Source: Pirellulales bacterium (GTDB lineage Bacteria; Planctomycetota; Planctomycetia; Pirellulales; PALSA-1355). Taken from it: a stretch of 64,000 nucleotides of DNA. Where the stretch lies: contig JALHMI010000013.1 in NCBI GenBank assembly GCA_022844125.1, forward strand, positions 1-64,000. The letters run 5' to 3'. The first letter of the stretch is position 1. Every line of letters starts with the position of its first letter. A program made the position numbers and the translations under genes. This document shows positions 77-50,863 of this stretch, piece by piece. The notes beneath the pieces were generated by a model, which saw nothing but the letters and a program-made list of their open reading frames with translations, had not been told where the DNA came from and searched no databases.

Positions 77-160
77 TCATCTGTGTTGATCTGTGTTCAT
101 CTGTGGTTCTCTTCGGGCCTCACCCTCTGTGTCCTCCGTGAACTCGGTGGCTAAATCTTC
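77..160. repeat. CTGTGTTCATCTGTGG-type dispersed intergenic repeat
   Basis: The spacer before the first gene carries the quasi-repeats ATCTGTGTTGATCTGTG and TTCATCTGTGG, then CTCTGTGTCCTCCGTGAACTCGGTGGCTAAA cut here into CTCTGTGTCCTCCGTG and AACTCGGTGGCTAAA. It resembles the CACAGAG/CTCTGTG theme of the inverted repeats at 3.7, 4.6-4.8 and 7.8-8.3 kb. Nothing else was seen in bases 1-222. No coding signal crosses it. Confidence 0.5.
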
Positions 161-3788: not shown

Positions 3789-4604
3789 ATGAGTAAGAAG
3801 TACGCGATTATCACGGGCGCCGGCAGTGGCCTTGGCCGCGCACTGGCCGTGGCGCTGGCCAAGCGCGGCTGGCATTTGGCGCTCGCCGATGTGAACGACG
3901 CTGGCAGCCAGGAGACGCTCTCGCTGGTCCGCGCGGCCGGCGGCGACGGCCAGGTCGAACACCTGGACGTCACGAAAGTGGAAGCGTGGGAAGCTCTGCG
4001 CGAGCGATTGAAGTCCACCTGGCCGCAGCTCGATCTACTCGTGAACAACGCCGGCGTGGGCGTGGGCGGCGAGGTCGGCACGCTCTCCCTGGAAGATTGG
4101 CGGTGGATCGTCGACATCAACCTGTGGGGCGTGATTTACGGCTGCCACACCATGGTCGACTGGCTCAAGGCGAACCCGGCCGGCGCGCACATCGTCAACA
4201 CGGCGTCGATGGCGGCCATTGTCTCGGCGCCCGGCATGGCTTCGTACAACGTCACCAAGGCCGGCGTCGTGTCGCTGTCCGAAACGCTTTACGGCGAGCT
4301 GCGGCCGTACAACATCGGCGTCACGGCCGTGTGCCCCGCCTTCTTTCAGACAAACATCATCACCAGCGGCCGGTTTGCCACGCCCGCCCAGCGCGAGATG
4401 GCGAATAAGCTGATGTCGGGCTCAAAATGCACGGCCGACCAGGTCGCCGCGAAGATCCTCAAGGCGATCGACCGCCGGCGGCTCTACGTGACCGTGCCCG
4501 GCATGGCCACGTTTTTCTGGCGCTTGAAACGGCTGATGCCGGTCGGCGTGCTGAAGCTGATCTCGAAGCGCAACATTCAAGTCGCGGCCAAAGATCGCCC
4601 GTAG
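3789..4604 (+). CDS. Short-chain dehydrogenase/reductase (SDR)
   Basis: A 271-residue classical SDR. Visible motifs are the nucleotide-binding TGAGSGLG (residues 9-16), NNAG (86-89), Ser140, and the catalytic YNVTK (Tyr153, Lys157). Length and motif spacing fit NAD(P)-dependent oxidoreductases. The basic C-terminal tail (FFWRLKRLMP...) resembles SDRs that associate with membranes or lipids, but the substrate cannot be read from the sequence. It stands alone on its strand. The ATG at 3789 is the natural start, with the Rossmann strand beginning at residue 5. Confidence 0.9.
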   Translation: MSKKYAIITGAGSGLGRALAVALAKRGWHLALADVNDAGSQETLSLVRAAGGDGQVEHLDVTKVEAWEALRERLKSTWPQLDLLVNNAGVGVGGEVGTLSLEDWRWIVDINLWGVIYGCHTMVDWLKANPAGAHIVNTASMAAIVSAPGMASYNVTKAGVVSLSETLYGELRPYNIGVTAVCPAFFQTNIITSGRFATPAQREMANKLMSGSKCTADQVAAKILKAIDRRRLYVTVPGMATFFWRLKRLMPVGVLKLISKRNIQVAAKDRP

Positions 4605-4635
4605 CACAGATGAGTTCTGGCGAAAGACGGCAGAA

Positions 4636-4825
4636 ATCTCAACACAGAGTCACAGAGAAACAGAGCCACGAAGTTGTGATCAAGGCTCTTTATCACGCGG
4701 ATTGAAACGACGAGCTTGTCTTCCCCCGACCATCAACGGACACGGGGCACCACTGGGTGATGACAGTTGCAATTGAGCCAGTTTTCTCTCTGCGTCTCTG
4801 TATCTCTGCGACTCTGTGTTGAATC
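4636..4825. repeat. Gene-less inverted-repeat element (CAACACAGAGTC arms)
   Basis: The left arm (4636-4665) reads ATCTCAACACAGAGTCACAG and on to AGAAACAGAG. The reverse complement of the right arm (4786-4825) reads GATTCAACACAGAGTCGCAG and on to AGATACAGAG. The two differ at only a few positions. The 120 bases between them hold no credible gene. The arms are the same family as those flanking the GxxExxY gene at 7787-8282, so this may be an empty or decayed form of that unit. It fills the spacer between the SDR gene and the terminator of the convergent gene. Confidence 0.75.
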
Positions 4826-4853
4826 TTGTTTGAGTTCACGTGTGCGGCGCGCG

Positions 4854-4891
4854 AAAAAAAGCGGGCCACCGGAACTGGTCCGATGGCCCGC
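4854..4891 (-). terminator. Rho-independent terminator of the DUF4198-DUF3386 gene
   Basis: Read on the minus strand, GCGGGCCA pairs with TGGCCCGC around a 15-base loop that can itself pair further (CCGG/CCGG-like), and a run of seven T follows. It lies about 30 bases after the stop codon at 4924. Confidence 0.85.
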
Positions 4892-4923
4892 TGCAGGTTC
4901 TTGCCATGCGACTGCTCGCCAGA

Positions 4924-6285
4924 CTACTTCGCCAGCAACTGGCAGTTCGAGAAGTCGATCTGCTTGGCGCTTGCGCCACCCTTGTGGGCGTCGATCTCGA
5001 TGATCTGCTTGGGCAGGTCGAACGCCCCCACCCGCTGCCACGAGTTGAAGTAGGCCAGGCTTGTCCGCAGGTCGCCGCTCTTGGTGTCGAAGAAGTTCAT
5101 CGTGAACGAACGCGGCAGGTACTTGTTCTCCTGGTTGCGCTCGATCTCGAGCACGCTGATCGTGAACCGCATGGTCGGGCCGGCCGCACGATTCACTTCC
5201 ATGATCGCGTCTTCCCGAATGCGGTAAGCGCTCTGCAGGCTTGGATCCCCCAGATCGATCTTGCGGCCCAGCGGATGGGCATTGGCCTCCTCGGCAAACG
5301 TCACGTCCCCCTGCGAAACCTCGCCGTCCGGCATGCGGTGCTGGACCATCGAGTTGAGCTGCTCTTCGACCCAGTCGGTGAGCTTGCCCTTGGGCAGGTC
5401 AACCGTCACCACGCCGTCGGCGTCGATCGTGGCTTTGCCCTTGAGAGTTTCGGCCCCCGAGAGCACGGTCAGATCGGTTGTGAAACCTGGGAATTCGTTC
5501 CACATGGCGCGGCCGTCGCGAGCTCGCACGAGCAGATCCAGAGCCGACTCGCCGGCCGAAGGAGTCTTCTCGGCGGTCAGGGTCGTGCCGGGGACGTCGA
5601 GCGTCAGCGTGGCGTGGTGCGAGGTGTTGTCGAACTTCTTGCCGTCACGCTCGCCGCTCTTATCGGCCTCGATCTTCGCGCTGCGAACGGCCCAGGCCCC
5701 CGGTTTGGCGGTGATGCTTACCTTGCCTTCGGCGTCGGTCTTCAGGTCGTGATGTTCACCGGCCGGATCAACAAATTGCACCTCGGCATCGCCCACGGGC
5801 TGGCCGTCGAACAATACCTGCACGGCGAGTTTCTTGCCTTCCAGCGCGGGCACGATGTCGAGCTTCAGCTTCTCAGCCCGGGCCGTGGCGGCGCTATCGG
5901 TCCAGTCGCTGCCGAGAGCCTTGGCGTAGTAGTTGAGCAGCGTGGGCGCGGGGCCGTGCGTGAACACGCCGTAGTCCCAGTGGCCTTCCAGGCTTGCCCC
6001 AGCGGCATTGCAGGCCGCCACAAGGGCCGCTTCGTCACCTTCAGCGGCTGCCAGCGAGACCGGCGTCAGCTTGCCGTCGGCGCCGCGCAGCCAGACCTTC
6101 GTCTTGGCGGCCTTGGCGATCAGGTGCGGCTCGCCCGGCGCAGGCTCTTCAGAAAAATACAGCCGGGCCTGCGACTTGTCGGCATCGCCGCTGCGCAGAT
6201 CGAGCCAAAGAAAGTGGGCCTGAGCTTGAGCGCTGGTGGCCAGGACAACCACGAGTCCCAGCAGGGCCTTACGAAACGTCGACAT
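4924..6285 (-). CDS. Secreted DUF4198-like and DUF3386 fusion protein
   Basis: A 453-residue exported protein. Residues 1-24 are a signal peptide ending in AQA before HFLWL. The first half (about 24-240) resembles DUF4198/NikM-like periplasmic proteins, including an Ig-like stretch with LFDGQPVGDAEV. The second half (about 255-450) matches DUF3386: ARDGRAMWNEFPGF, a later HPLGR, and YLPRSFTMNF. DUF3386 is best known as a free-standing protein in cyanobacteria and plants, and its biochemical role is unknown to me. The ATG at 6285 has AAGGAC just upstream; the open frame continues further but only through the tandem-repeat leader. A strong terminator follows. Confidence 0.8.
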   Translation of the reverse strand: MSTFRKALLGLVVVLATSAQAQAHFLWLDLRSGDADKSQARLYFSEEPAPGEPHLIAKAAKTKVWLRGADGKLTPVSLAAAEGDEAALVAACNAAGASLEGHWDYGVFTHGPAPTLLNYYAKALGSDWTDSAATARAEKLKLDIVPALEGKKLAVQVLFDGQPVGDAEVQFVDPAGEHHDLKTDAEGKVSITAKPGAWAVRSAKIEADKSGERDGKKFDNTSHHATLTLDVPGTTLTAEKTPSAGESALDLLVRARDGRAMWNEFPGFTTDLTVLSGAETLKGKATIDADGVVTVDLPKGKLTDWVEEQLNSMVQHRMPDGEVSQGDVTFAEEANAHPLGRKIDLGDPSLQSAYRIREDAIMEVNRAAGPTMRFTISVLEIERNQENKYLPRSFTMNFFDTKSGDLRTSLAYFNSWQRVGAFDLPKQIIEIDAHKGGASAKQIDFSNCQLLAK

Positions 6286-6775
6286 GCTTTGGGTCCTTCG
6301 AATGAAACAAGTTCTGGCGAAATGCTGGCGGTGTGCGTTCGGCGAATTCATGTGCGGCGAATTCATGTGCGGCGAATTCATGTGCGGCGAATTCGAAGTC
6401 TTCGAAATCCTGAGCCGCCATCGGAGACAACTCAGGGCAGGAGCTTGCAGCGGGACTCGCCTCGAACAGTCCGGTCGGCGAACAATTTGCCGGTGAACCA
6501 GACCTCGCAGGTCCGGGGGCGAGAGGTCACCGAACAATATTGAGATTGGTTCTCAAGTCCCTCCATAGTAATGGTTTTGAACGACGCGTCAATCGGCTGG
6601 ATCCGCACATTCACGGCTCGCTTTAAGTACCCGTAGCAGCAACCACTTAGATGCGCCCTTCAGCAATGAGCCAAACACCGCACACTGCCTTGTTGACACT
6701 AAGTCTCAATAAGGATAGAACTACCCGCCGTACGTTGTTTCCCTCACGACTGGCCCAATTTCAAACAGGTGTACG
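6286..6775. other. Divergent intergenic region holding a tandem repeat
   Basis: About 490 bases separate the divergent DUF4198-DUF3386 gene and hemP. Apart from the 15-bp tandem array at 6341-6394 I see no gene. Promoters for both genes should lie here, but I cannot place the -10 and -35 elements with confidence. Confidence 0.4.
6341..6394. repeat. 15-bp tandem repeat, 3.6 copies, GGCGAATTCATGTGC
   Basis: Three exact 15-bp units run from 6341 to 6385 and a partial fourth (GGCGAATTC) ends at 6394. Each contains GAATTC. The array lies 56-109 bases upstream of the ATG of the minus-strand DUF4198-DUF3386 gene, so it is in its leader or promoter. The unit is a multiple of three bases, but translation in the gene's frame would need a far-upstream start without support. 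Confidence 0.95.
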
Positions 6776-6961
6776 GTGTTTAGCGATCCCCGCAGCGCGC
6801 CCGGCGAACCCAATGAAACAACCCCCACGGGTTATCCGTCAATGCGGGAGGTCAACTCCCAGGAGCTGATGCAAGGCACCCGCGAGATCATCATCCGCCA
6901 CGGCGAAGAGGCCTATCGCCTGAGCGTGACGCGCAGCGGCAAGTTGATCTTGCGCAAGTGA
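6776..6961 (+). CDS. hemP: Hemin uptake protein HemP family
   Basis: A 61-residue small protein. Its last 35 residues (QELMQGTREIIIRHGEEAYRLS cut here, then TRSGKLILRK) match the HemP family: a short DNA- or ligand-facing segment with the conserved E-YRL-T--GKLILTK pattern. HemP is linked to haem uptake and, in some Proteobacteria, to activation of haem-uptake genes. The chosen GTG start has an AGGTG just before it; the ATG at 6842 would give a 39-residue form covering only the conserved part. No haem receptor or transporter lies nearby in this window, so the partner genes must be elsewhere. Confidence 0.75.
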   Translation: MFSDPRSAPGEPNETTPTGYPSMREVNSQELMQGTREIIIRHGEEAYRLSVTRSGKLILRK

Positions 6962-6996
6962 GCGAGAACGGTTTGGACGGCCGAACGGCAGGCCAC

Positions 6997-7764
6997 CTAG
7001 AATGTCTTCACCAGGGCACCGCCGTCGACGACGAGCACTTCGCCCGTGATGTAGCTGCCAGCCTCGCTCGCCAGGAGCAATGCGGGGCCGGCCAGCTCCC
7101 GAGGGTCTCCCCAGCGGCCCAGTGCCGTGCGGTCGGCGAGAGCCTTCTTCTGCTCCGGTGAAAGGAGCGTGCCCGGCAGGTCGGTGAGAAACGGCCCCGG
7201 GGCAATGCAATTCACCGTAATGCCATCGGCGCCGAGATCGAGGGCGCTGGCCCGCGCCAATCCTAGCAGGGCGCTCTTGGTGGCCGAGTACGCATTGCGT
7301 GCGTCCTTCGACGCCAGGCCCATGATCGACGAAATGTGAATCACGCGTCCCCACTTGCGCTGCTTCATCTGCGGCACCAGCGCCCGGGTCAGCAGCATGC
7401 AGGAGGTGAGGTTCAGCTCGACGATCTGATCCCAGGCTTCGTCCGTAATCTGATCGATCGGCTGCGGGACGTTGCTGCCGGCGTTGTTGACCAGGATATC
7501 GATGCGGCCCATCTCCTGGAGTGCCTTTTCGGCCAGATTCTTAACGTCCGCGCGATCCGTCATGTCGGCGACGAAGTAGCTGACTTTGACGCTAAGACCT
7601 TCCTTGATCTCCGCCTGAGCCTTCTTGAGCTCATCTTCATGCCGGCTGGAGATGACCACGTTGGCGCCGGCCTCGGCGAAGCCGCGTGCCATAGCCTTGC
7701 CGAGCCCCTTGCTGCCGCCTGTGACCAGCGCCGCGCGTCCCGAGAGATCGAAGAGAGGATGCAT
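6997..7764 (-). CDS. SDR oxidoreductase, gluconate 5-dehydrogenase/FabG-like
   Basis: A 255-residue classical SDR with TGGSKGLG (residues 15-22), NNAG (93-96), the serine region HISS (143-146), and YSATK (Tyr159, Lys163). The C-terminus GEVLVVDGG is typical of FabG and gluconate-5-dehydrogenase-like members. Such enzymes reduce or oxidise a hydroxyl or keto group with NAD(P)(H). The substrate is not decidable here, but sugar-acid oxidation is a common assignment for this subgroup. It converges with hemP. Its upstream side is only 22 bases from the left arm of the repeat that brackets the GxxExxY gene. Confidence 0.88.
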   Translation of the reverse strand: MHPLFDLSGRAALVTGGSKGLGKAMARGFAEAGANVVISSRHEDELKKAQAEIKEGLSVKVSYFVADMTDRADVKNLAEKALQEMGRIDILVNNAGSNVPQPIDQITDEAWDQIVELNLTSCMLLTRALVPQMKQRKWGRVIHISSIMGLASKDARNAYSATKSALLGLARASALDLGADGITVNCIAPGPFLTDLPGTLLSPEQKKALADRTALGRWGDPRELAGPALLLASEAGSYITGEVLVVDGGALVKTF

Positions 7765-7786
7765 TGCCGAATCCTGAGAGAAAGAA

Positions 7787-8282
7787 TCTTAACACAGAGT
7801 CGCAGAGGCGCAGGAGGAAAGCAGAATTCAAGACTTCAGACGCCATTGATCACGCGATGAATTCCGTCCTTGAGTAGCCTATCGCCAAAGTTGATAACGA
7901 GCGCCAATTTCAGGTTCGTCAAACGAAGATAGGTCAGTGCCTGAGCTTCAAAAATCGAGTTGTACTGAGTTACCGCCTTGCATTCGACGATGACCGAACG
8001 GTTCACCAGCAAATCGAGTTTAAGGGGCGTTGCCAGTTGTTGGTCCTTGTATCGAATCGGCAAAAGCAACTGCCGTTGGACCTCAAACCCTCGTAAACCA
8101 AGCTCCCAAACCAAGGCCTCCTCGTAGACACTTTCCAGCAATCCAGGCCCACCGAGCGTGCGATGAACCTCGATCGCTGCATCAACAATTTGCCCGCTAA
8201 TCTCGTTCTCTCGTATCGCGCGCTCCCGCATTCTTCTGCCCGTTTTCTCTGCGTCTCCGTGCCTTTGCGACTCTGCGTTAGA
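7787..8282. mobile_element. GxxExxY gene bracketed by inverted repeats (putative element)
   Basis: Left arm 7787-7816 reads TCTTAACACAGAGTCGCAGA and on to GGCGCAGGAG. The reverse complement of the right arm 8255-8282 reads TCTAACGCAGAGTCGCAAAG and on to GCACGGAG. Only about six positions differ. The pair encloses one gene, the GxxExxY protein at 7836-8231. The right arm lies immediately upstream of its start codon. There is no transposase and I see no clear target-site duplication, so calling it mobile is inference from the inverted arms, the related pair at 4636-4825 and the patchy occurrence known for this protein family. Confidence 0.55.
7836..8231 (-). CDS. GxxExxY family protein (PD-(D/E)XK-like)
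   Basis: A 131-residue protein. The name-giving motif is seen as GLLESVY near residues 29-35, after an amphipathic helix (IVDAAIEVHRTLG). A nuclease-like core follows: KLDLLVNRSVIVECKAV has the spaced D and ExK residues of PD-(D/E)XK folds. The C-terminus (ALVINFG...DGIHRV) is also typical. Biological function is not established; the fold suggests a nuclease or nuclease-derived protein. The ATG at 8231 is directly downstream of the right-hand inverted repeat, so the repeat forms its 5' leader. It shares a strand with leuB but is separated from it by the repeat. Confidence 0.9.
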   Translation of the reverse strand: MRERAIRENEISGQIVDAAIEVHRTLGGPGLLESVYEEALVWELGLRGFEVQRQLLLPIRYKDQQLATPLKLDLLVNRSVIVECKAVTQYNSIFEAQALTYLRLTNLKLALVINFGDRLLKDGIHRVINGV

Positions 8283-8298
8283 ATTTTTTGTACTTGGC

Positions 8299-9372
8299 CT
8301 ACAGCGCCTCGCAGACGAGATCGCCCACCTCGCTCGTGTTGTACCCCATCTTCCCCGCGGCCTGGCTCTTCATCTTCGTCCCGGTGACGACCTGAATCGC
8401 CTTGTTGATCCGCGCGGCGCTCTTGGCGTGGCCGGTCTGCTCCAGCAGCATCGCCATCGCGTTGATCGCGGCAATCGGGTTGATCTTGCCCGTGCCGGTG
8501 TACTTCGGAGCGCTGCCGCCCATCGGCTCGAACATGCTCGTGCCGCCCGGATCGGGGTTGATGTTGCCACCGGCGGCGACGCCCATCCCGCCTTGCAGGA
8601 TGCCGGCCAGGTCGGTAATGATGTCGCCGAACATGTTCGTCGTCACGATCACGTCGAAGTACTCGGGATTCTTCACCATCCACATGCAGGCCGCGTCCAC
8701 GTGGTTATAGTCCGGCTTGATGTCCGGGTATTCCTTGGCGACTTCCTGGAACGTGCGCCACCACAAGTCATGCCCGTAGGTGAGCACGTTGGTCTTCGCG
8801 ACCAGTGTGAGCATCTTCTTCGGATTGTTGCGTTTGCGGGTGAAATCGAAGGCCCAGCGAATGCAGCGTTCGCAGCCCTTGCGGGTGTAGACGGCAGTTT
8901 GAATCGCCACTTCGTCAGGGGTGTTCTTCTTGAGAAATCCGCCGGTCCCACAGTACATGTCCTCGGTGTTCTCGCGAACGACGACGAAGTCGATGTCATC
9001 CGGTCCCTTGTCGCGGAGCGGGGTCTCGACGCCCGGAAACAGCTTCACCGGCCGCAGGTTGATGTACTGATCGAGCTGGAAGCGAAGCTCGAGCAGCAGG
9101 CCTTTCTCGAGGATGCCGGGCTTCACGTCCGGGTGACCGATGGCACCCAGATAGATCGCGTCGAACTTGCGCAATTCGTCGACGGCCCCTTCGGGCAGCA
9201 CTTCGCCAGTTCGCAGGTAACGATCGCCGCCGAAATCGAAGTTGGTTGTGTCGTACTTGATGCCGTCCAGTTTGGCGACGGCCTTCAGAACCTTAAGACC
9301 TTCGGCGGCGACTTCAGGACCAGTACCATCGCCACCAAGGACGGCGATCTTCAGCGATTGATTGGCGTTCAA
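8299..9372 (-). CDS. leuB: 3-isopropylmalate dehydrogenase family
   Basis: About 357 residues of the isocitrate/isopropylmalate dehydrogenase family: KIAVLGGDGTGPEV at the N-terminus, RENTEDMYCG, and the metal-binding NMFGDIITDLAG followed by GSAPKYTGTGKINP. LeuB oxidises and decarboxylates 3-isopropylmalate in leucine synthesis using NAD+. The length fits LeuB better than the longer NADP-isocitrate dehydrogenases, though the paralogous tartrate or homoisocitrate enzymes cannot be fully excluded. No ATG fits: I favour TTG at 9372, which has a GGGGG stretch upstream, over TTG at 9396. No other leu genes are nearby. Confidence 0.82.
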   Translation of the reverse strand: MNANQSLKIAVLGGDGTGPEVAAEGLKVLKAVAKLDGIKYDTTNFDFGGDRYLRTGEVLPEGAVDELRKFDAIYLGAIGHPDVKPGILEKGLLLELRFQLDQYINLRPVKLFPGVETPLRDKGPDDIDFVVVRENTEDMYCGTGGFLKKNTPDEVAIQTAVYTRKGCERCIRWAFDFTRKRNNPKKMLTLVAKTNVLTYGHDLWWRTFQEVAKEYPDIKPDYNHVDAACMWMVKNPEYFDVIVTTNMFGDIITDLAGILQGGMGVAAGGNINPDPGGTSMFEPMGGSAPKYTGTGKINPIAAINAMAMLLEQTGHAKSAARINKAIQVVTGTKMKSQAAGKMGYNTSEVGDLVCEAL

Positions 9373-9442
9373 AGGGAACCCCCGGGTTTGCGGCAAACGT
9401 GATGCACGAAAACCCGGATTTTAGCAGTGCAGGGAAGAGCCC

Positions 9443-9931
9443 TCAAGGAGCGGTTGCCGACGACCAAATACCTCGCCGCGCGTCCCTCGCCTCCTCTTCA
9501 GCCGCGCGGAACCGCTGCTTCTTCTCGCCGGAGTAATTGTAATTCCGCTCCCAGCGGGCGAGCCCTGCGCGAAGCAGCTCTTCGTTGAGCATCCGGTCGC
9601 CAACCCAGACGTACGCCAGCGGTCGGCCGTACTGATCGAAGCGTTCGCGGTCGTACTCCAGCCGCGCGACACCGCCGGAGACAAACTGCTTGGTGAACTG
9701 ACTCGCCTCGGGACCGAAAGGTTCGACGGGGCTCTCCGGCTTCACACTTTCCGGAGCGTTCACGCCGATCAGCCGGACACGCATGTCAGGCTCAAACAGA
9801 ATCGTGTCGCCATCGACAACGCGCCGCACCGCCAGCTCGGTGGTGGCCGGCAGATTGTGCGGCGAGTAGCTGGGCTCCGGTCCTTGCCACTGCCGATAGG
9901 CAATGAGCGCCAGGAGCGCAATGCCGATCAC
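9443..9931 (-). CDS. Membrane-anchored or secreted thermonuclease (SNase-like)
   Basis: About 162 residues. The start is uncertain: the only plausible in-frame start near the domain is GTG at 9931, directly before a hydrophobic stretch (IGIALLALIAY). The frame stays open upstream, but there it runs under the neighbouring gene. The staphylococcal-nuclease fold is clear: VVDGDT (39-43), RVRLIGVNAPE (51-61), YDRERFDQYGRPLAYVW, then LNEELLRAGLA. Such enzymes cut DNA and RNA with Ca2+. The hydrophobic N-terminus suggests a membrane anchor or an uncleaved signal. It follows the zinc-ribbon gene on the same strand and may be co-transcribed. Confidence 0.82.
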   Translation of the reverse strand: MIGIALLALIAYRQWQGPEPSYSPHNLPATTELAVRRVVDGDTILFEPDMRVRLIGVNAPESVKPESPVEPFGPEASQFTKQFVSGGVARLEYDRERFDQYGRPLAYVWVGDRMLNEELLRAGLARWERNYNYSGEKKQRFRAAEEEARDARRGIWSSATAP

Positions 9932-49845: not shown

Positions 49846-49886
49846 GGCCAACATGGTCATGGGTTGGTAACAGAAGAGTTGTTGGG

Positions 49887-49990
49887 TCGGAAGACCGACG
49901 CTATTGGTCGGAAGACCGACGTGATTGGTCGGAAGACCGACGTGATTGGTCGGAAGACCGACGTGATTGGTCGGAAGACCGACGTTGGTT
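49887..49990. repeat. 21-bp tandem array, five units with hairpin core
   Basis: Five 21-bp units starting TCGGAAGACCGACG run from 49887 to 49990; units 2-4 are identical (ending TGATTGG), units 1 and 5 differ slightly. Each unit contains GGTC-GGAA-GACC, able to fold as a short hairpin. The array is bracketed by copies of TGGTTATGGGTTGGTAA at about 49829 and 49986, with a third variant between. Confidence 0.95.
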
Positions 49991-50135: not shown

Positions 50136-50198
50136 GCCCCCGGCATTGCCGATCAGGCCCCCGGCATTGCCGATCAGGCCCCCGGCATTGCCGATCAG
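50136..50198. repeat. 21-bp tandem array, three units (GCCCCCGGCATTGCCGATCA)
   Basis: Three near-identical 21-bp units follow one another from 50136 to 50198. The unit length equals that of the upstream array but the sequence is unrelated. There are no spacers, so this is not a CRISPR array. Confidence 0.93.
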
Positions 50199-50863
50199 GC
50201 CAGCTTCGCATGGCGACGCGATGCGGTTCGAATTTTCAAAGAGCTGCGGGGCTGGATTCTGCCGAGATCGCGAAAAAGTTCAGGCGGTTGTTTTTCGGCG
50301 CTGCATTTTTCGGGTGTGTGGGTTCAAAAATGCGCGCAAATGATGTTTCGGGCGCACACACACGCCCCTCGCAGGCCTCTTGCGGTAGCCTGCAGGTTTC
50401 GCGGTTCCTCCAGTTTGCCAGGGGTGTGGGTGTTCGTGGCGATCATGACTCAGTCCCTATCTAGTGTCGTGACCTTACACTATCCGAAGTCCTGGCCTGT
50501 TTTCTAGATCTGGTGGACACCTGGGCGGTGTGCGCGGTGCGCACGCAAGATCGCGCAGCGCCAACGAGTTGCGCCGGCAGCGCGCCACACTCGCGGGCAA
50601 GAGCGTTTCGGAATGCGAATTTTTCAGATGCGGATGTCCCGACTCGCGGCAGGGTTGGCGAGACGCAAAGGCACAGACACGCCAAGGCGCGGCAGAAATG
50701 GTCGGCGGCTATTCTTCGCTGAGTGCTTTGAATTCGACTCACGCGGATCTCAGCTGCGGAGCAGCGACGCCGTGCAGGCATCGAGCGGTCTTGGGTGCCA
50801 CAGGTGCTGCGCAGCAGTCACCTGTGCACGTTGCGACCTAGAAGGTCCCGAGCTGCCAGAGCC

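Follow-up and report, generated by a model that had tools for sequence, protein, structure and literature searches.

The window analyzed here is a stretch of 64,000 nucleotides from a Pirellulales bacterium (assembly GCA_022844125.1, contig JALHMI010000013.1, positions 1 to 64,000, forward strand), in which a small gene of the GxxExxY family lies between an SDR gene (6997-7764) and a LeuB-like dehydrogenase gene (8299-9396). The gene is enclosed by two inverted arms made of short tandem units, and the parts of this unit, together with related repeats elsewhere in the window, are as follows.

7790-8280, minus strand: the whole element, 491 bp, consisting of the GxxExxY gene with its two inverted tandem-repeat arms.
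7790-7819, plus strand: the arm on the 3' side of the gene, TAACACAGAGTCGCAGAGGCGCAGGAGGAA, in 8-9-bp units.
8247-8280, minus strand: the arm on the 5' side of the gene (its leader), four units, inverted relative to 7790-7819 and reading TAACGCAGAGTCGCAAAGGCACGGAGACGCAGAG in reverse complement.
7836-8231, minus strand: the GxxExxY gene, 131 aa, predicted PD-(D/E)XK fold, with E33, D73, E83-x-K85 and Q97 conserved.
4639-4822, no strand assigned: a gene-less palindrome of 184 bp with the same arm type, MITE/REPIN-like.
4639-4665, plus strand: the left arm of the gene-less palindrome, TCAACACAGAGTCACAGAGAAACAGAG.
4786-4822, minus strand: the right arm of the gene-less palindrome, holding the only other exact CACAGAGTCGCAGAG in the genome.
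77-150, minus strand: the right-hand arms of what looks like a nested pair, with an inner CACAGATGA type (77-110) and an outer CACGGAG/CACCGAG type (125-150), whose left arms would lie beyond the contig edge; the contig may have broken at this repeat.

We examined the locus in more detail to assess whether the arms are a genuine feature of the gene. The protein matches TIGR04256 (GxxExxY) with 134.6 bits against a cut-off of 35 and PF13366 (PDDEXK_3) with 125.9 bits against a cut-off of 22, and in 58 sequences G30, E33, Y36 and D73 are invariant, with E83, K85 and Q97 conserved in at least 90%. The arms lie 15-16 bp from the start and stop codons, and each is a run of 8-9-bp units of the form C(A/G)C(A/G)(G/A)AG, with a matched 20-bp core that is 18/20 identical. 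Hence, the observation made in the sequence-only reading, that near-identical inverted arms bracket exactly one GxxExxY gene, is confirmed, although it needs correction in that the exact 15-mer CACAGAGTCGCAGAG occurs only once at this locus (7793-7807), the other arm carrying it with 2 mismatches. A search of the 6.4-Mb genome for this 15-mer returned only one other exact copy, at 4804-4818 in the gene-less pair, a result that on its own would have suggested no pattern. With up to 3 mismatches allowed there are eight matches in the window against 2.5 expected, and 0 of 100 shuffles reached eight. Short perfect or near-perfect tandem repeats at 6340-6394 (15 bp x 3.7), 49885-49985 (21 bp x 4.8) and 50136-50201 (21 bp x 3.1) have no evident link to the element.

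At this locus alone the arm score is modest (14, reached by 0.8% of control intervals), so that an accidental pairing might be considered from this site in isolation; the decisive evidence is the repetition of the pattern at other GxxExxY loci. The genome has five such loci. Two others have clear arms of quite different sequence, with the locus at position 82838 of contig C13 carrying AGAACCACAGATGAACACAAATGAACACAGATAAGA, an exact inverted match, and that at position 20511 of contig C25 carrying ATTAACCGCAGAGGACGCGGAGGTACGCAGAGG, whereas the remaining two are degenerate copies without a clear pair. The sequence-only reading had proposed looking for the same arms around other GxxExxY genes, but each element has its own arm sequence (CACAGAG, CACGAAG, CGCCAAG, CACGGATGA and others), matched only within the element, and a search for identical arms would wrongly refute the idea.

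We therefore tested for matched arms rather than for shared ones, by aligning the 400 bp upstream of each gene to the reverse complement of the 400 bp downstream with a +1/-2 score. A looser score (+1/-1, 500-bp flanks) gave spurious long matches from complementary coding DNA in G+C-rich flanks and was rejected. A score of at least 13 was reached by 28/32 loci from the same order, 60/74 loci from about 15 phyla and 29/31 further loci, and by 118 of 139 (85%) taken together, this last count also admitting loci with shorter flanks. In contrast, the threshold was reached by 0.8% and 2.5% of random control intervals, by 2.4% of 251 size-matched ORFs (90-160 aa) on the same contigs and by 1 of 28 ParE toxin genes (Fisher p 5e-17 against ParE). 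The threshold was chosen after seeing the score distribution, but the contrast holds at every threshold, and at 18 or more the figures are 55% against 0%. When the upstream flank of one locus was paired with the downstream flank of another, only 7.5% and 17% reached the threshold, so the match is specific to the locus. Of the 139 loci, 21 fall below threshold, a few of them because of weak arms or contig ends, and a GxxExxY gene on a fusobacterial plasmid (CP102406.1) appears to carry direct repeats (AGATTTAATCCGTGTACCTAT) rather than inverted ones. The median element length is 503 bp. The multi-locus test refutes the view that the pairing is accidental.

Given that the arms differ between loci but match within each, we asked whether arm type is related to the protein. 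For 97 loci, arm similarity rises with protein identity (Mantel rho 0.48, permutation maximum 0.23), and between sets of mostly different phyla rho is 0.43 against a permutation maximum of 0.26. For example, a clade ending LExKR(I/V)V has ...GAT units, often with longer spacing; loci L036, L293, L297 and L138 (the last from an Akkermansia record) have CGCCAAG; and loci L041 and L305 have CACAAAG. This fits recognition of the arms by the protein, although co-inheritance of gene and arms would give the same correlation without any recognition.

The distribution of the element indicates that it spreads. In three genomes of the same family (G001, G002 and G003) the same two flanking genes lie 73-122 bp apart without the element. 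In Thioalkalivibrio, an element between one gene pair is present in genomes G057, G083, G081, G079, G101, G087 and G078 and absent in G086, G073, G082 and others, and at that one site three protein lineages carry three arm types, CACAGAG, CACGAAG and AACAGGAAG. The gene is multi-copy in many relatives of the order and patchy. Proteins from Acidobacteriota and Chloroflexota records are 69-71% identical to a copy from the window's order, whereas copies within that order can be below 40% identical to the window protein, which fits horizontal transfer, although many of these records are metagenome bins and misbinning cannot be excluded for single cases. The gene is under purifying selection (dN/dS 0.06-0.20), although the G083 copy looks degenerate. 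Vacant sites that resolve the ends of a GxxExxY element to the base were sought in plasmids and phages, but no close enough pair was found, the GxxExxY sites being too diverged.

Arms also occur without the gene. The palindrome at 4639-4822 has no significant GxxExxY remnant, and the interiors of the gene-less copies that were read are mostly unlike one another. In Thioalkalivibrio, gene-less palindromes of about 130-300 bp are numerous, and those with CACGAAG arms often enclose CACAGAG arms, which sometimes enclose a GGTAGGATGCG...CGCATCCTACC palindrome that resembles a REPIN (loci L216, L219 and L225). CACGAAG-pair counts are 25-214 in seven of nine genomes of the genus that have a GxxExxY gene and 0-9 in 20 of 21 without it (p = 0.001, not corrected for phylogeny); the exception, G089, has 92 pairs and no detectable GxxExxY, which another protein or loss of the gene may explain. 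At one gene-less site, related species hold different arm types, two are vacant and G101 (contig C27, 33745-34045) keeps only a scar, AACCACGAAGCGCGTGG, suggesting deletion between the arms. The sequence-only reading would have taken arms occurring equally often around unrelated genes, together with GxxExxY genes lacking these arms, as a sign of accident; the gene-less palindromes point instead to non-autonomous copies.

These palindromes could alternatively belong to the host or to another, REPIN-like, system and act as insertion hot spots, with GxxExxY genes landing in their middles. In keeping with this, many palindromes have no gene, nesting is common, different palindromes or genes occupy the same intergenic site in related species, and Thioalkalivibrio also carries RAYTs (PMC3116915). 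However, arm type tracks the GxxExxY clade across phyla, size-matched ORFs and ParE genes lie inside such arms only at the low control frequencies given above, and in Thioalkalivibrio high CACGAAG-pair counts nearly always coincide with a GxxExxY gene, and we regard this reading as unlikely.

As a comparison, we applied the test to TIGR02436 genes (S23/four-helix-bundle, the protein family of 23S rRNA intervening sequences) outside rRNA. Matched inverted arms were found at 30 of 30 loci, with a strict 7-bp period in 50 of 52 arms, against mostly 8-11 bp for GxxExxY. One such element, with arms GCAAATT..., occupies in genome G007 (contig C276, 1711-2022) the same LeuB-SDR spacer that holds the GxxExxY element in the window. 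On cyanobacterial plasmids that are 97-98% identical, a 428-bp four-helix element of Trichormus variabilis plasmid C is absent from Fremyella and Nostoc linckia; the vacant site reads AAAAAGTAATTAACAAAT and the occupied site AAAAAGTAAT[AAATCAG...TTCTTT]GTAATTAACAAAT, a clean insertion with a 5-bp direct repeat (GTAAT). The other two resolved sites of this class show insertion with about 8 and 45 bp of target replaced, so that a fixed target duplication is not established. As these elements have the same architecture without a nuclease, a nuclease is not needed for the arms.

The resemblance to 23S rRNA intervening sequences, the closest architectural analogue, raises the possibility that the arms act at the RNA level, folding the insert into a hairpin that host RNases cut out of polycistronic transcripts so that insertion inside operons is tolerated, with spread by host processes and another role for the protein. 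The intervening sequences likewise have one small ORF between terminal inverted repeats and are patchy and horizontally acquired (PMC4990558), and some elements do sit inside operons, with a GxxExxY gene between fabD and fabG in Sphingomonas parapaucimobilis, a four-helix-bundle gene between cas6 and cas4 on an Anabaena sp. 90 plasmid, and a further element in an nrdB-nrdA neighborhood; a GxxExxY-domain gene next to a CRISPR reverse transcriptase has also been reported (PMC8934634). However, intervening sequences sit in rRNA helices and are cut out by RNase III, whereas these elements lie between protein genes, the window element between SDR and LeuB-like genes with no Rfam match in 4000-9500, and GxxExxY is an unrelated fold. 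An RNA-level role does not explain why arm type follows the protein clade, nor gene-less palindromes outside operons. We consider it unlikely as the main explanation, although it could be true in addition to mobility.

We next examined the protein itself. The structural model (pLDDT 96) is a PD-(D/E)XK fold, and Pfam lists PF13366 alone. It shares the fold and the conserved first-helix E, D, E-x-K and Q with nucleases of the Cas4/Hjc/lambda-exonuclease type, but no PDB chain is related by sequence, and the structural matches are weak: the nearest are Cas4-type SSO0001, restriction enzymes and Hjc, with a best Z of 9.2 at 4.9 Å and, for Hjc, a Z of 6.8 over 87 residues at 3.3 Å, a middling value of a kind that is common, so we claim no membership. 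A domesticated repair or defense nuclease that acts on the palindromes, for instance trimming or homogenizing them, with no part in their spread, would be in line with the Hjc/Cas4-like fold, the strong purifying selection and the single copy per Thioalkalivibrio genome among many gene-less palindromes. Against this, the gene is multi-copy in many relatives of the order, patchy and more than 60% identical between phyla, and a PADLOC search gave no defense-family hit. This reading is doubtful.

The closest working analogue is the REPIN/RAYT system (PMC3116915), in which a gene is likewise flanked by palindrome-forming repeats, with many dispersed gene-less inverted pairs, diverse repeat types that go with distinct protein clades, and horizontal spread. 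RAYT, however, is a Y1 (HUH) transposase with REP hairpins, whereas here the protein is PD-(D/E)XK nuclease-like and the arms are tandem 8-12-bp units that match only as a pair. With insertion sequences and their MITEs the element shares terminal inverted repeats, one gene, gene-less derivatives and vacant sites, but the only recognized gene between the arms is GxxExxY, with no DDE, HUH, serine or tyrosine transposase, no fixed target duplication was found, and the end sequence is not conserved in the family. Tandem TAACTGA heptamers of Beggiatoaceae and cyanobacteria (PMC4679880) are also intergenic 7-bp repeats with an unexplained, apparently horizontal distribution, but were described as possibly regulatory and without an associated element. 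Searches with arm sequences, S23 and heptamer terms found no description of such elements in the open-access literature, to which the search and hence the claim of novelty are limited; of the papers there that contain the term GxxExxY, one does not bear on these elements and another concerns an algal virus genome.

Together these data suggest, with moderate confidence, that the interval is one copy of a widespread and apparently undescribed family of small single-gene mobile elements. The analysis establishes directly the element and its paired, element-specific arms, their link to protein clade across phyla, the location of elements between genes at sites vacant in relatives, and the dispersed and sometimes nested gene-less palindromes. 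We infer, no transposition having been observed, that the tandem units are binding sites for the encoded putative nuclease, that it cuts at or near the arms, perhaps as hairpin or cruciform DNA, and that host repair or replication copies the palindrome into a new site without a fixed target duplication; the same protein would spread gene-less palindromes in trans, and so work like the proposed RAYT/REPIN partnership with a different enzyme and different ends. The interpretation in the sequence-only reading is thus partly supported: a unit of arms plus one GxxExxY gene, with the arm in the gene's 5' leader, is strongly supported, as is its multi-copy, patchy and cross-phylum spread, but that the GxxExxY protein itself mobilizes the unit remains inference.

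A broader reading, which we hold only tentatively and at somewhat less than even odds, is that GxxExxY genes define a new class of mobile element in which a small PD-(D/E)XK nuclease moves itself and gene-less palindromes by recognizing fast-diverging tandem-unit arms, and that S23/four-helix-bundle genes define a parallel class with 7-bp units; together they would account for many of the short tandem repeats of unknown origin in bacterial intergenic regions. GxxExxY proteins are common, often multi-copy and without known function, and the arms give them a physical context and a specific, testable candidate substrate. If the nuclease drives the spread, this is a transposase-free route for small elements across many phyla, for which natural arm/protein pairs give a ready specificity code to test. 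The parallel with four-helix-bundle/S23 genes extends the 23S intervening sequences, known for decades, to a much larger set of non-rRNA insertions, and may offer an origin for unexplained heptamer repeats.
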